Of a stretch of DNA of 64,000 bases, positions 13,259 through 16,926 are shown piece after piece (position 1 is the first letter of the stretch; each line of letters starts with the position of its first letter). The position numbers were made by a program, and so were the translations under genes. The DNA is taken from positions 1,240,001-1,304,000 of the forward strand of contig NZ_RCCA01000001.1 of NCBI RefSeq assembly GCF_003663845.1, in the 5' to 3' direction. The DNA is from Chryseobacterium sp. 7. Lineage in GTDB: Bacteria > Bacteroidota > Bacteroidia > Flavobacteriales > Weeksellaceae. Under the pieces are notes generated by a model. It saw nothing but the letters and a program-made list of their open reading frames with translations, ran no database searches and had not been told where the DNA came from.

Positions 13259-15013
13259 TTATTTAAAAATTCTGATAAAACTATCTTTTTCCAGGCTTTC
13301 CAGCGAGAAATCAAAATCAGCTTCCGCCTTTTCTGTTGTGATCTCTGCTCCAAGCTCTTTTACAAGCTCATTGAAAGACATTGCTTCGTACCACTGCTGG
13401 TACAAGGCACTGGTTGCCATTACAGAAACTTCATTATTTCCTGAAACATGAGAATGTCCGGCTCCGAAATTCAATAGTACGAAACATTGTTTTTCGTTCT
13501 TTGTCGTCAGCATTCCCAGAATCATTTGCTTTTGTACAGAATTACATCTGGCTTCAACAAAAAGATGGTTAGGATTCATCATATAATCGTAAGAAATATT
13601 ATCTCCTTTTCCGATTACGATTTTATAACCACAATTGGCATCTCCACTGAAAACGTTATTCATAACAAGCGTTGGCGCACAATGTCCTTTATTGGCGTAA
13701 AGATATTCAACAGCGCCGTTGGGAGCAGAAGTCATATCTCCGGAATACATCAATTGTCCGTCATTATGATTATAAGCTGCATTCCAACCTATTTTTCCGG
13801 CGATATTCAATCCCGAAAGGTCAAGGTCATTCGCTCCCCATTTGTCTTCCCAATAAATACCTACAGCCAGTCTGTCACCATAAAAACGCGTTCCGGTAGG
13901 AATATTTCCAACAAACATTTTTTCAGAAGTTGGCAATGCAAATTCTACATTCTCTGGGAAGTAGAATTTCTTTCCGGAAAGGTTTTCATATTTCAGTTTC
14001 AAAAAGTCCAGAATGAAATCATAATTGAACTGATTTACGTAAGTTTCCTTACCTTTTTTAGTCCATGATTTTCCGTTTCGAACTCTGTAAACAAAAGTAT
14101 CCTGACCATACATTCTTGAGTAACATGCTGACATTGCTTTAAATAATGCAAACGGTGTCGCATTTTCCAGCCAATGCCAATCACTGTTTTCCAGTAATGT
14201 ATTCGTAGCATCATTCAAAGGGTTTGATATCAATGGTTTATGATGCACTTTAGACAGCTTTGATATTTTATTGATTACTTTTGGCGCTCTGTTTTTATAT
14301 GCAAGGAATAACGGCTTAAATCTGTTGAAAATTTCCGCCATTTTTTCCAGTCCAAAGCTTTCGAACAGATAGGTTGGGTTGAAGTTACTTTGCTTGATCA
14401 AATTAATCAAATCATCATTTTTAATCAAAAGCGTTGTAGTGGTTGTCTTATAAATAACATAACGGAAAAACTCAACAGGATTTTCTGGATAAACTTCATA
14501 AAGGTCAGCTATTTTTATAACCGCTTCTTTATTCCTGATATTTTCTTTTCCGGTAAAATCATATTCCAGTTCCGTATGTAAAATAGAAAGCAGATCATCA
14601 ATGGTTTCTTCTTTTAAAGCAATACCTGATCTTAGCAAAGAAAGACATTTTTCCTGCATTTCTTCTACAGAATAGGCTTTAATGACTTTAAAAACCATCT
14701 TCATATCAGGAACATTCAAGAGTTCATCAGGAATATACATTTCACTTTGGAAATCGCTTCCATACGTTGAAATATAATGGCTGATCTGTTCAAAAAATAA
14801 ATCAATTCTGGAAGTATTCTTTATTTTCTCCCAGGATTTATGAAAGGTTTTATTCAAATCATTTCCATTCAGTTTTTCCTTTGCATAATAAGAGATGATC
14901 TCATTTTTTGCCCACAAAGCATCCGGTTCAATGATGAAGCCATCATTAGAAATAAATGGCTTTTCATCAGATTTTCTGGCCAATACTGCATTAAATAATT
15001 GTAGTGTTTTCAT
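13259..15013 (-). CDS. 584-residue protein of unrecognised family, RtcB/tRNA-like RNA locus
   Basis: I do not recognise this family. The first 300 or so residues look mainly helical and contain FLAYKNRAPKVINKISKLSK, a basic patch that could bind RNA. The last 200 residues look beta-rich; the segment VGIYWEDKWGANDLDLSGLN followed by IGWNAAY and LMYSGDMTSAPNGAVEYLY loosely resembles the TerD beta-sandwich pattern (DLD then a later SGD). There is no signal peptide or membrane segment, so it is cytoplasmic. Its 240-base leader holds three covarying hairpins, and the same transcript direction includes a tRNA-like RNA and rtcB. By analogy with Ro60/Rsr next to Y RNA and RtcB it may bind the structured RNA; this is inference. 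Confidence 0.8.
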   Translation of the reverse strand: MKTLQLFNAVLARKSDEKPFISNDGFIIEPDALWAKNEIISYYAKEKLNGNDLNKTFHKSWEKIKNTSRIDLFFEQISHYISTYGSDFQSEMYIPDELLNVPDMKMVFKVIKAYSVEEMQEKCLSLLRSGIALKEETIDDLLSILHTELEYDFTGKENIRNKEAVIKIADLYEVYPENPVEFFRYVIYKTTTTTLLIKNDDLINLIKQSNFNPTYLFESFGLEKMAEIFNRFKPLFLAYKNRAPKVINKISKLSKVHHKPLISNPLNDATNTLLENSDWHWLENATPFALFKAMSACYSRMYGQDTFVYRVRNGKSWTKKGKETYVNQFNYDFILDFLKLKYENLSGKKFYFPENVEFALPTSEKMFVGNIPTGTRFYGDRLAVGIYWEDKWGANDLDLSGLNIAGKIGWNAAYNHNDGQLMYSGDMTSAPNGAVEYLYANKGHCAPTLVMNNVFSGDANCGYKIVIGKGDNISYDYMMNPNHLFVEARCNSVQKQMILGMLTTKNEKQCFVLLNFGAGHSHVSGNNEVSVMATSALYQQWYEAMSFNELVKELGAEITTEKAEADFDFSLESLEKDSFIRIFK

Positions 15014-15033
15014 TGTTTTAAGTTTAAAAAATA

Positions 15034-15195
15034 AGTGAGGAGTAGATTCATTAAAAGTGAAGGGTATAGGAACTCCTTTTACCTATAGTTTATAAAAAGC
15101 GGGGAGTATTTTTCCAAAAAATATAGGAACTCCCTTTGCCTTATAATTTGTAAAAAGGCGGAAAGTAATTCTGAATTATAGGAACTTTCTTTGCC
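15034..15195 (-). ncRNA. Array of three covarying hairpins sharing modules with the tRNA-like RNA
   Basis: Reading the minus strand, three hairpins occur: H1 15195-15157, H2 15140-15098, H3 15083-15034. Each has a 5' module (GGCAAAGAAAGTTCCTATA, GGCAAAGGGAGTTCCTATA, GGTAAAAGGAGTTCCTATA) and a 3' module (ACTTTCCGCC, ACTCCCCGCT, ACTCCTCACT). The six-base stems GAAAGT/ACTTTC, GGGAGT/ACTCCC and AGGAGT/ACTCCT change together, as do the outer pairs GGC/GCC, GGC/GCT and GGT/ACT, with a constant AAA-versus-C internal loop. AGTTCCTATA opens every apical loop. The array forms the leader of the 584-residue gene. Compensatory changes argue for a selected RNA structure; its function is unknown. Confidence 0.75.
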
Positions 15196-15206
15196 TTTAA
15201 TTTTTT

Positions 15207-15252
15207 TAATAATGAAAATGTCTGATATATGAATATACACATTTTCTTCATT
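15207..15252 (-). ncRNA. Linker hairpin just 3' of the tRNA-like RNA
   Basis: On the minus strand AATGAAGAAAATGT (15252-15239) pairs with ACATTTTCATT (15221-15211), giving about 11 bp with a 3-base bulge and a 17-base loop. It begins 4 bases after the tRNA-like discriminator position and precedes the repeat hairpins, so the whole stretch 15364-15034 looks like one structured RNA. Confidence 0.55.
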
Positions 15253-15255
15253 TTG

Positions 15256-15470: not shown

Positions 15471-15496
15471 AATATTAGTTCATATCAGATATGCAA

Positions 15497-16879
15497 TTAT
15501 GCTTTTCTGAATTTCTTCTTTTTCTTCCATGGAGCATTCTTCTGAACGTCTCCGGCCATGATACATCCGTATGGCATCACTTCATCCAGAACTTCACAAA
15601 GTCCATATTCTTCAATCTGTGCTCTTACATTCTTCGCACTTTTATAAGCGCTTGGAAGTTCAGAAATATCAACCTCATTGGAGTAGAAACGGATATCTAA
15701 TCCTGCTGTTTCCTCATTGAAGATTTCCTCTGTCGTTTTATGAGCTAAAGATCTCTTATGCTGGCTTCTGCTGAAATTTCTTCCTGCTCCATGCGGCGCA
15801 AAACCTAAGTTTCTTTCATTCGTTTTTCCCTGAACAATCAATACCGGTTCTGCCATATTCAACGGTATCAGTCTTGGTCCCGTAATATCCGGCATGAATT
15901 TATCATCCAGTGGAGTAGCTCCTTTTGCATGATAGAAGAGATCTCCATCTTTAAAAACGAAGTTATGTTCGTTCCAATATCTGTTTTCTTTCTCCATTTC
16001 CAGCTTGTTCAGCACGGCATCATGAAGAGAAGTATGGTTTTCCTTTGTCCATTGTCTTATCAACTGCAGTGCTTCCCAATAAGATTTACCTTCTTCGGTA
16101 TCATAAGGAATCCAGGCATTTTCCCTCAGGGTTTCGGGAGAAATTTCCTGTCTGAAACGGTTAGCGATTTTCATTCCTTTATCGTATAAAGCAGCTCCCG
16201 GAGCTCTTGATCCGTGATGGGTTACCATCATGGTATTTCCCGTATTTTTGGAAATTCCTACAAAAAGGAAGTGGTTTCCGTCTCCCTGAGTTCCCATATG
16301 AGAACGGGCAATGCTGATCAGTTTTTCATCATTTAAGAATTCATTTTCTCTGAAAGCATCCATCAGTTCCTGAGACATTGGCATCTGTTCCCCTCTTGGT
16401 CTTCCACCATATCCGAAATGAGTAATCGCATGTGCAGCATCCAAAACCTCTTTAGGATTGGTTTTTCCAAAATCTGTCAGCATTACAGAACAACAGATAT
16501 CAGCGCTATGGAATCCCGGATGAATGGCATTTTGGGCAACCACCACACCTCCCACAGGAATCTGACCTTCTGGACCTGTAGGGCAGGCATCCGGCATTAA
16601 AGCACCTCCAATAAGAGTAGGGGTTTTCATCAAAACTTTCATTGTTTTGATTACTTTTTCCACATTATCATTCTCACTTTCGTGTTCCGCACGGATGTTG
16701 ATCATAAAATCTTTAGCCGTTTCGTGGAGCGGAATAATATCCGGCTGTTTGAACTGTACCAGATATTCTGCAATCTGGTGTTCATCCAGATTATTCTCGT
16801 TGATATAGCTAATGGCATCTTTAAACCATTTTGCGGGTCTATATCCTAATTCGATTAAATGATTTCCATTAAATTCCAT
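15497..16879 (-). CDS. rtcB: RtcB-family RNA ligase
   Basis: RtcB joins RNA 2',3'-cyclic-phosphate or 3'-phosphate ends to 5'-OH ends using GTP and Mn2+. This 460-residue protein retains the core: HPGFHSADICCSVM (metal-binding Asp and Cys), GDGNHFLFVG, THHGSRAPG, HNFVFKD, YHAKGATPL and PHGAGRNFSRSQ with the guanylated histidine. ATG at 16879 (MEFNGNHLIELGYRP) is chosen because a promoter-like box lies at 16901-16908, inside the N-terminus of the longer frame from 16924. The gene is the first member of a minus-strand set with a tRNA-like RNA, a hairpin array and a 584-residue protein, which suggests a dedicated RNA substrate. Confidence 0.93.
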   Translation of the reverse strand: MEFNGNHLIELGYRPAKWFKDAISYINENNLDEHQIAEYLVQFKQPDIIPLHETAKDFMINIRAEHESENDNVEKVIKTMKVLMKTPTLIGGALMPDACPTGPEGQIPVGGVVVAQNAIHPGFHSADICCSVMLTDFGKTNPKEVLDAAHAITHFGYGGRPRGEQMPMSQELMDAFRENEFLNDEKLISIARSHMGTQGDGNHFLFVGISKNTGNTMMVTHHGSRAPGAALYDKGMKIANRFRQEISPETLRENAWIPYDTEEGKSYWEALQLIRQWTKENHTSLHDAVLNKLEMEKENRYWNEHNFVFKDGDLFYHAKGATPLDDKFMPDITGPRLIPLNMAEPVLIVQGKTNERNLGFAPHGAGRNFSRSQHKRSLAHKTTEEIFNEETAGLDIRFYSNEVDISELPSAYKSAKNVRAQIEEYGLCEVLDEVMPYGCIMAGDVQKNAPWKKKKKFRKA

Positions 16880-16900
16880 TGTTGTTTCATTTTGATGATG

Positions 16901-16908
16901 CAAAGTAA
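16901..16908 (-). promoter_or_regulatory. Candidate -7 box for rtcB
   Basis: TTACTTTG followed by CATCAT lies 21 bases before the chosen rtcB ATG. It is almost identical to the box before the RNA-repair operon at 7964-7971, suggesting similar promoters. Confidence 0.4.
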
Positions 16909-16914
16909 TAACCT

Positions 16915-16926
16915 TATTGCGCAATA
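16915..16926. promoter_or_regulatory. Perfect palindrome upstream of rtcB, operator candidate
   Basis: TATTGCGCAATA is a perfect 12-base palindrome ending 6 bases from the candidate -7 box. Its position between the -33 and -7 regions would suit a repressor. The WYL regulator encoded at 17428 is a possible ligand-responsive partner; this link is inferred from proximity only. Confidence 0.4.

Follow-up and report, generated by a model that had tools for sequence, protein, structure and literature searches.

What do an RNA ligase gene, a tRNA-like RNA, a row of hairpins, and a gene for a large protein have to do with one another? The four stand side by side on the minus strand of Chryseobacterium sp. 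7, in the window analyzed here: a 64,000-nucleotide stretch of contig NZ_RCCA01000001.1 (positions 1,240,001 to 1,304,000), whose own numbering is used below. A sequence-only reading of the window had listed these elements, which are all present at the coordinates it gave. It had also proposed a ribonucleoprotein (RNP) system parallel to Ro60/Y RNA, with a 584-residue protein in the place of Ro60 and the tRNA-like RNA as a substrate, sensor, or scaffold for RtcB. The answer reached here is that the protein and the hairpin-forming RNA element probably form an RNP that would act in RNA damage control in the manner proposed for Ro60/Y RNA, in phages and in an RNA-repair regulon of Bacteroidota, a reading given a probability of roughly 0.6. 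The element is conserved and covarying, usually lies just before the protein gene, and is present in genomes that hold the protein. The parallel to Ro60/Y RNA is supported by this co-occurrence, by permuted tRNA bodies in phages, and by a sub-threshold YrlA match in the phage locus L142.

A conserved RNA element and its protein

The element consists, in order, of stem 1, an AAA/C internal loop, stem 2 closed by GU/AC, the sequence UCCUAU, and a variable loop that ends in U. The window contains three copies as hairpins and one permuted copy at the anticodon-loop position of the tRNA-like RNA. Hairpin 1 (15155-15197, minus strand) and hairpin 2 (15096-15142, minus strand) have fold z-scores of -2.83 and -2.37, respectively, while hairpin 3 (15032-15085, minus strand), the leader-proximal copy with stem 1 GGU/ACU, ends 18 nucleotides (nt) 5' of the start codon of the protein gene. 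In the window, the covariance model R1 matches the three hairpins with E values from 2e-18 to 2e-15 (1.7e-15, 2.1e-18, and 4.2e-16 for hairpins 1, 2, and 3), values that are partly given by construction since R1 was built with close relatives included; its next match has an E value of 0.2.

Under a strict module rule, 90 of 96 loci together contain 240 hairpins, whereas the same rule yields 1 in reversed sequence and 4 when applied to the opposite strand. With anchors that are blind to pairing, 34 of 53 distinct versions of stem 2 are fully paired (shuffle mean 9.3, maximum 17). In a viral scan with the letters of stem 2 left free, full pairing is seen in 85 of 95 matches and, among 50 distinct stems, in 41, compared with a mean of 5.5 and a maximum of 13 in shuffles. 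In alignment A4, 97.7% of cells are paired and there are 149 double changes versus 42 in shuffles, figures that are biased because the rows were preselected for pairing. Stem 2 covaries. A distance group at 41-45 nt in the hairpin scan is an artefact of the script's loose partner rule and was not used.

Three results either count against a conserved structured element or are neutral. Across the genome, AAAGTTCCTAT taken as a bare word shows no enrichment (14 matches versus 15 in the reversed control); what matters is the pairing around the word and not the word by itself. On its own, hairpin 3 has no advantage over shuffled sequences, 75 of 200 of which fold as well, and the module helix is missing from the minimum free energy fold of the isolated tRNA-like RNA. 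Because lone folds give them no support, hairpin 3 and the module helix of the tRNA-like RNA rest on comparison, which supports the latter helix with few changes.

The element travels with the protein. Among 98 Chryseobacterium genomes, 63 have a protein match, which in one of them (G035) is a C-terminal fragment only. R1 matches 64 of the 98, including all 62 with a whole or split protein, and each of these 62 has at least two R1 matches, with a best E value below 1e-11. Two protein-less genomes have one weak R1 match each (1.1e-4 and 6.0e-4), and R1 has no match in the other 33 protein-less genomes or in G035. A close rtcB is found in 96 of the 98 (G064 has a distant paralog only and G079 has none). 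The region downstream of rtcB was read in 32 of the 35 protein-less genomes (all but G039, G064, and G079) and the region upstream in 20. Downstream of rtcB in these 32 genomes and G035 there is neither a module nor a tRNA-like RNA: neither RNA model matches at E 0.01 (best R1 value 0.099), and the model matches that one scan gave all fall in the Ro60 locus. Since protein-less genomes keep rtcB yet lack the modules, the RNA element follows the protein and not rtcB. An RNA-first scan of IMG/VR agrees with the pairing: of 75 pieces, 52 also encode the protein, always on the same strand (52 of 52). The other 23 pieces represent 22 records, of which 10 hold the protein elsewhere and 12 do not hold it.

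The protein gene (13259-15013, minus strand) is an open reading frame of 584 codons for amino acids, and its product has no Pfam (E 1), NCBIfam, PHROG, or PADLOC model match, which bears out the earlier statement that it belongs to no recognized family. Structure prediction gives it a helical N-terminal domain (about residues 30-341) and a C-terminal TerD-like beta sandwich (about residues 376-537). In the predicted structure, the C-terminal domain aligns to TerD structures and has the TerD fold, while the Pfam sequence model of TerD has no match in the window protein at E 1. A first AlphaFold model was poor (predicted local distance difference test score of 69), and Foldseek found no match in the PDB at E 0.001. 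TROVE was not detected by sequence: there is no Pfam match, hhalign against 12 TROVE proteins gives a probability of 0.1, and the profile match is not significant. Pfam likewise finds no vWA domain at the C-terminus of the window protein.

The family comprises 2550 proteins at E values of at most 1e-3 among 7997 scored candidates. From the homolog sets of 2550 and 1786 proteins, 120 each were listed, and 0 and 28 of these, respectively, entered A2; L077 has an internal stop and was left out of the protein alignments. Homologs are rare, with 7 of 395 genomes phylum-wide and 16 of 148 family-wide, and none was found on plasmids in the collection searched. At the edge of the family, a protein similar to SCO0854 matches the family profile (E 9.9e-16), mainly in the C-terminal domain. 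Two distant phage members, L138 and L148, match NF041916 weakly (E about 1e-3), and L148 has a weak match to phrog_16296 (E 0.0066). One homolog among the matches listed, P0196, is named from a Methanophagales archaeon metagenome-assembled genome and may be viral. An RNase_T exonuclease is encoded directly 3' of the protein gene in Tenacibaculum (L077:7868-8422) and beside it, with an operator-like site of its own, in Kordia (L092:4504-5052).

Tandem conserved modules with variable loops are also what an array of the TIGR type would offer, with the loops as guides. Several features oppose such an array: the loops are mostly short (at most 40 nt in 184 of the 253 from phages), they drift between close relatives, some contain tRNA parts, and 62 family members share no consistent Pfam domain. 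On these features, the guide explanation is rejected as very improbable. Pfam and PADLOC scans find neither a Nop nor a Cas effector domain in the protein.

The modules may instead act only in cis, as a leader for autocontrol by the protein or for transcription attenuation, with the tRNA-like RNA as a bystander. The 18-nt distance to the start codon in the window favors this explanation, as do the presence of at least one hairpin upstream of the protein gene in 63 of 64 Bacteroidota loci and a run of four Ts, which follows 130 of 190 hairpins in Bacteroidota as opposed to 128 of 1280 windows of background. However, in the cyanophage S-CRM01, phage Phass-1, and L141 there are also modules after the gene or at a long distance from it. 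In addition, phage hairpins are less often followed by a four-T run (74 of 251 versus 133 of 2120 in the background), and whole as well as permuted tRNAs are built into modules. A purely cis-acting role is thus considered unlikely.

tRNA-like bodies and the phage members

The tRNA-like RNA (15256-15364, minus strand) matches the Rfam tRNA model with 46.9 bits (E 4.1e-09) and has intact acceptor, D, and T arms. ARAGORN makes no tRNA call at this position, and the anticodon loop is not a normal one. It was earlier described as oversized; the tRNA-like RNA is real, but the loop is not enlarged. Instead, a circularly permuted module (15299-15329, minus strand; strand B 15321-15329, strand A 15299-15315, as read from the sequence) replaces it. 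No close tRNA parent was found in the same genome by blastn, where the best other match spans 22 nt and lies in the Ro60 array. The Rfam YrlA model scores the window RNA at 13.2 bits, below its gathering cut-off of 69, and low-score Rfam matches beyond tRNA and YrlA were set aside as chance.

Bodies of this anticodon-position type, with the three arms intact, were found by script in 35 of 64 Bacteroidota loci and in 5 of 32 phage loci (L122, L130, L137, L138, and L144). Against the sequence-only reading, the tRNA-like body is optional, and hairpins are present in 63 of the same 64 Bacteroidota loci. In Flavobacterium and Kordia (L079, L081, L084, and L092), the loop of the middle hairpin contains a T-arm mimic, CTGGTTCGANTCCAG, which is likely a tRNA remnant.

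Homologs of the protein occur in 29 IMG/VR loci, in the cyanophages S-CRM01 and S-CBWM1, and in phage Phass-1, and when phages were searched again, with a distant member as the query, the same five records came back. Counts of modules and RtcB cover 27 of the 32 phage loci (all but L127, L131, L134, L147, and L149). Modules are present in 24 of these 27 phage records, whereas RtcB is found in none, with a search control that was positive in 9 of 14 genomes. In one locus, L125, the gene stands without any module. The sequence-only reading had asked whether homologs of the protein keep company with both rtcB and the RNA: in phages the link to the RNA holds and the link to rtcB fails. RtcB as core partner fails with it, as rtcB is present in 96 of 98 Chryseobacterium genomes and is followed by no module in the 32 protein-less ones that were read.

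The phage records also bear on whether the window RNA is a genuine tRNA whose intron is spliced by RtcB. Its intact arms and the adjacent rtcB would suit a tRNA of this kind. However, the insert is the same element as the free hairpins, the five phage loci named above hold such RNAs although RtcB is absent from all 27 records, and elsewhere the tRNA bodies show permutation or an abnormal anticodon loop. This explanation, for which ARAGORN offers no call either, is rejected as having almost no chance of being right.

Phage module loops extend the range of tRNA shapes. A T arm lies inside 21 of 253 loops, 17 of which are distinct. These 17 comprise 7 permuted tRNAs with the acceptor stem closed by a small loop (a count read by eye; the script flagged 3 loops), 4 whole tRNA bodies joined via the acceptor end, and 6 remnants. 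ARAGORN calls the whole body of L252 tRNA-Leu and those of L253, L256, and L271 tRNA-??? with an abnormal anticodon. Attachment thus follows three topologies: at the anticodon end, at the acceptor end, and as a permuted tRNA with a closed acceptor stem. The permuted body with a closed acceptor stem that characterizes Y RNA and YrlA is found in phage loops, while the window copy is unpermuted. For the phage RNA of L142, the match to Rfam YrlA is full-length, and its 39 bits (E 2.8e-07) fall short of the cut-off of 69.

Half of the phage loci (16 of 32) contain tRNAs, and 8 of these contain at least 10. The RNAs could accordingly serve phage counter-defense: tRNA mimics that lack a normal anticodon would occupy host nucleases that cut tRNAs and shield the tRNA array of the phage, and the bacterial copy would have been captured. 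In the accessible text of PMC7790460, this role is offered as a possibility for the tRNA-like part of YrlA. No nuclease partner is identified, the protein matches no PADLOC model, and the bacterial copy sits within an RNA-repair regulon, all of which argue against it. Counter-defense as the explanation is doubtful, and it overlaps with the Ro60-like RNP preferred here.

The operator-like site and the RNA-repair genes

The rtcB gene (15497-16879, minus strand) encodes an RNA ligase that matches Pfam RtcB (PF01139) with 121 bits and an E value of 8e-35. A second rtcB, about 30% identical, lies at G000:C1:4414009-4415112, and many searched Chryseobacterium genomes also have one. Upstream of the window rtcB is the operator-like site CTACGCAAAACTATTGC (16921-16937, minus strand), which also occurs at the Ro60 gene and the Y-like array of the same genome. 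Of 60 loci, 58 have a site like CTACGYAAAANNATTGC (at most two mismatches) no more than 250 bp before rtcB. Such a site also precedes rtcB in 20 of 20 sampled protein-less genomes, so the site belongs to rtcB and not to the cassette of protein and modules.

Within its own genome, the site occurs six times with at most one mismatch (three in the reversed control): once before rtcB, once before the Ro60 gene, twice before the Y-like array, once before a TatD gene, and once elsewhere. This Ro60 is a true one, with TROVE and vWA domains (vWA_Ro60 match), and lies at L218:6900-10200 (G000:C2:131899-135199). It is followed by about five tandem Y-like units of the form AAGTGYCGTA...TTACTTC, some of which contain permuted tRNAs; two YrlA-like matches in the array score 38.6 and 36.4 bits, below the cut-off. 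The 584-residue protein hence does not replace Ro60, as had been proposed, because the same genome holds a true TROVE/vWA Ro60 with its own Y-like array. Seven of nine further Ro60 loci have at least one site (at most two mismatches), which in five of these stands immediately before Ro60, and seven of the nine have at least one AAGTGYCGT...ACTTCG unit. In other Chryseobacterium, the site is also found near the locus in front of a gene for RlaP, which is followed by an R2K ATP-grasp gene (L044:10546-12676 and L058:8208-9760; Pfam was run on L044 only).

A WYL-domain regulator gene lies at 17428-18447 on the plus strand (Pfam WYL E 4e-10, WCX E 3e-10), and a relative is present in 56 of 64 loci. 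From its position, the WYL regulator likely reads the operator-like site. The HopJ gene (17038-17373) is taken to be a bystander, as the loci of Flavobacterium (L079, L081, and L084), Cloacibacterium (L089), and Kordia (L092) have no relative of it and still keep the WYL gene and rtcB. Between rtcB and the tRNA-like RNA, the window contains a perfect 16-nt inverted repeat, TAAACCTTATAGGTTT (15436-15470). The likeness of GAAGTTCCTAT to a Flp target was rejected and is taken as chance.

The proposed RNP among known systems

In the proposed mechanism, the protein would grip the bipartite module (stem 1, the AAA/C internal loop, stem 2, and UCCUAU), which would hold out a tRNA-shaped body or loop. 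Modules in the protein's own leader may serve both feedback control and assembly. The tRNA mimic would be a docking site or a decoy for enzymes that handle or cut tRNAs, as suggested for YrlA. The role of the RNP in phages would be to protect or process their own tRNAs. In Bacteroidota, the cassette lies behind rtcB and the operator-like site, which is common to Ro60 and the Y-like array in the same genome; for this reason it is predicted to be induced together with them upon RNA damage, probably via the neighboring WYL regulator.

A broader proposal, held to be about as probable as its negation, is that these are members of a phage-borne RNP class in which a helical-TerD protein is combined with a modular scaffold RNA that accepts any tRNA fold, whether by the anticodon end, by the acceptor end, or permuted. 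Bacteroidota would have captured it into a WYL-controlled RNA-repair regulon beside the true Ro60/Y-RNA array, giving each cell two parallel tRNA-mimic RNPs. The literature searched, which was seen in part and mostly excludes subscription papers, contains no description of this protein-RNA pair.

The role of bacterial Ro60/Y RNA is largely open, and a second, sequence-unrelated protein with the same kind of RNA would show what is essential, namely a body shaped like a tRNA, carried on a stem that binds the protein. The shared operator-like site would allow RtcB, Ro60, the Y-like RNAs, and the new RNP to be followed as one regulon, and the phage members link tRNA mimicry with the tRNA arrays of large phages.

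GOLLD and ROOL are large phage RNAs that lie near or around tRNAs, a setting shared by the phage RNAs described here; unlike them, the window, L138, L142, L148, and part of Phass-1 give no such match in Rfam scans. The C-terminal TerD fold and the profile match to the SCO0854-like protein connect the family to TerD and to the MXAN_6230/SCO0854 RING family (NF041916), whereas the window protein matches neither model and shows no RING.

RNA-binding proteins of the Ro60 type are themselves encoded by phages. According to the accessible parts of the respective papers, a TROVE protein occurs in a small subset of jumbo phages (PMC7824862), Listeria phage CKA15 encodes the Rsr-like CKA15_055 near tRNA genes and strongly transcribed unannotated RNAs (PMC12282133), and ORF 64 of vB_VhaM_pir03 is an Rsr-like protein (PMC7765460); both come with putative Y RNAs. 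The phage members resemble CKA15_055 and ORF 64 as phage genes for a protein predicted to bind RNA, near tRNA genes in the case of CKA15. They differ in that the authors report Rsr or Ro60 matches for those proteins and, by the descriptions in these parts, mention neither a TerD portion nor UCCUAU.

The closest comparison is with Ro60/YrlA and the rsr-yrlBA-rtcBA operon of Salmonella, in which, in the text available of PMC7790460, Ro60 (Rsr) is encoded with YrlA/Y RNAs. In the same text, Hughes et al. put forward an anticodon nuclease as a possible target of inhibition by the tRNA-like part of YrlA. The window protein carries neither a TROVE nor a vWA signal, its C-terminus is predicted to adopt a TerD fold, and the element is not a Y stem and forms tandem arrays in the protein's own leader; since neither TROVE nor vWA nor a Y stem was found, the pair is not filed as a member of Ro60/Y RNA. 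The Salmonella operon, as far as that text describes it, differs further by having RtcR beside rtcB, where the regulator gene near the window rtcB is of the WYL type, and by its RtcB, which the phage records lack. As in that operon, rtcB adjoins in most Bacteroidota loci, and the operator-like site is common to the window rtcB and the true Ro60 of the same genome. Like Ro60/YrlA, the new protein stands beside RNAs that combine a conserved stem with a tRNA-like body, which in some phage members is permuted and closed.

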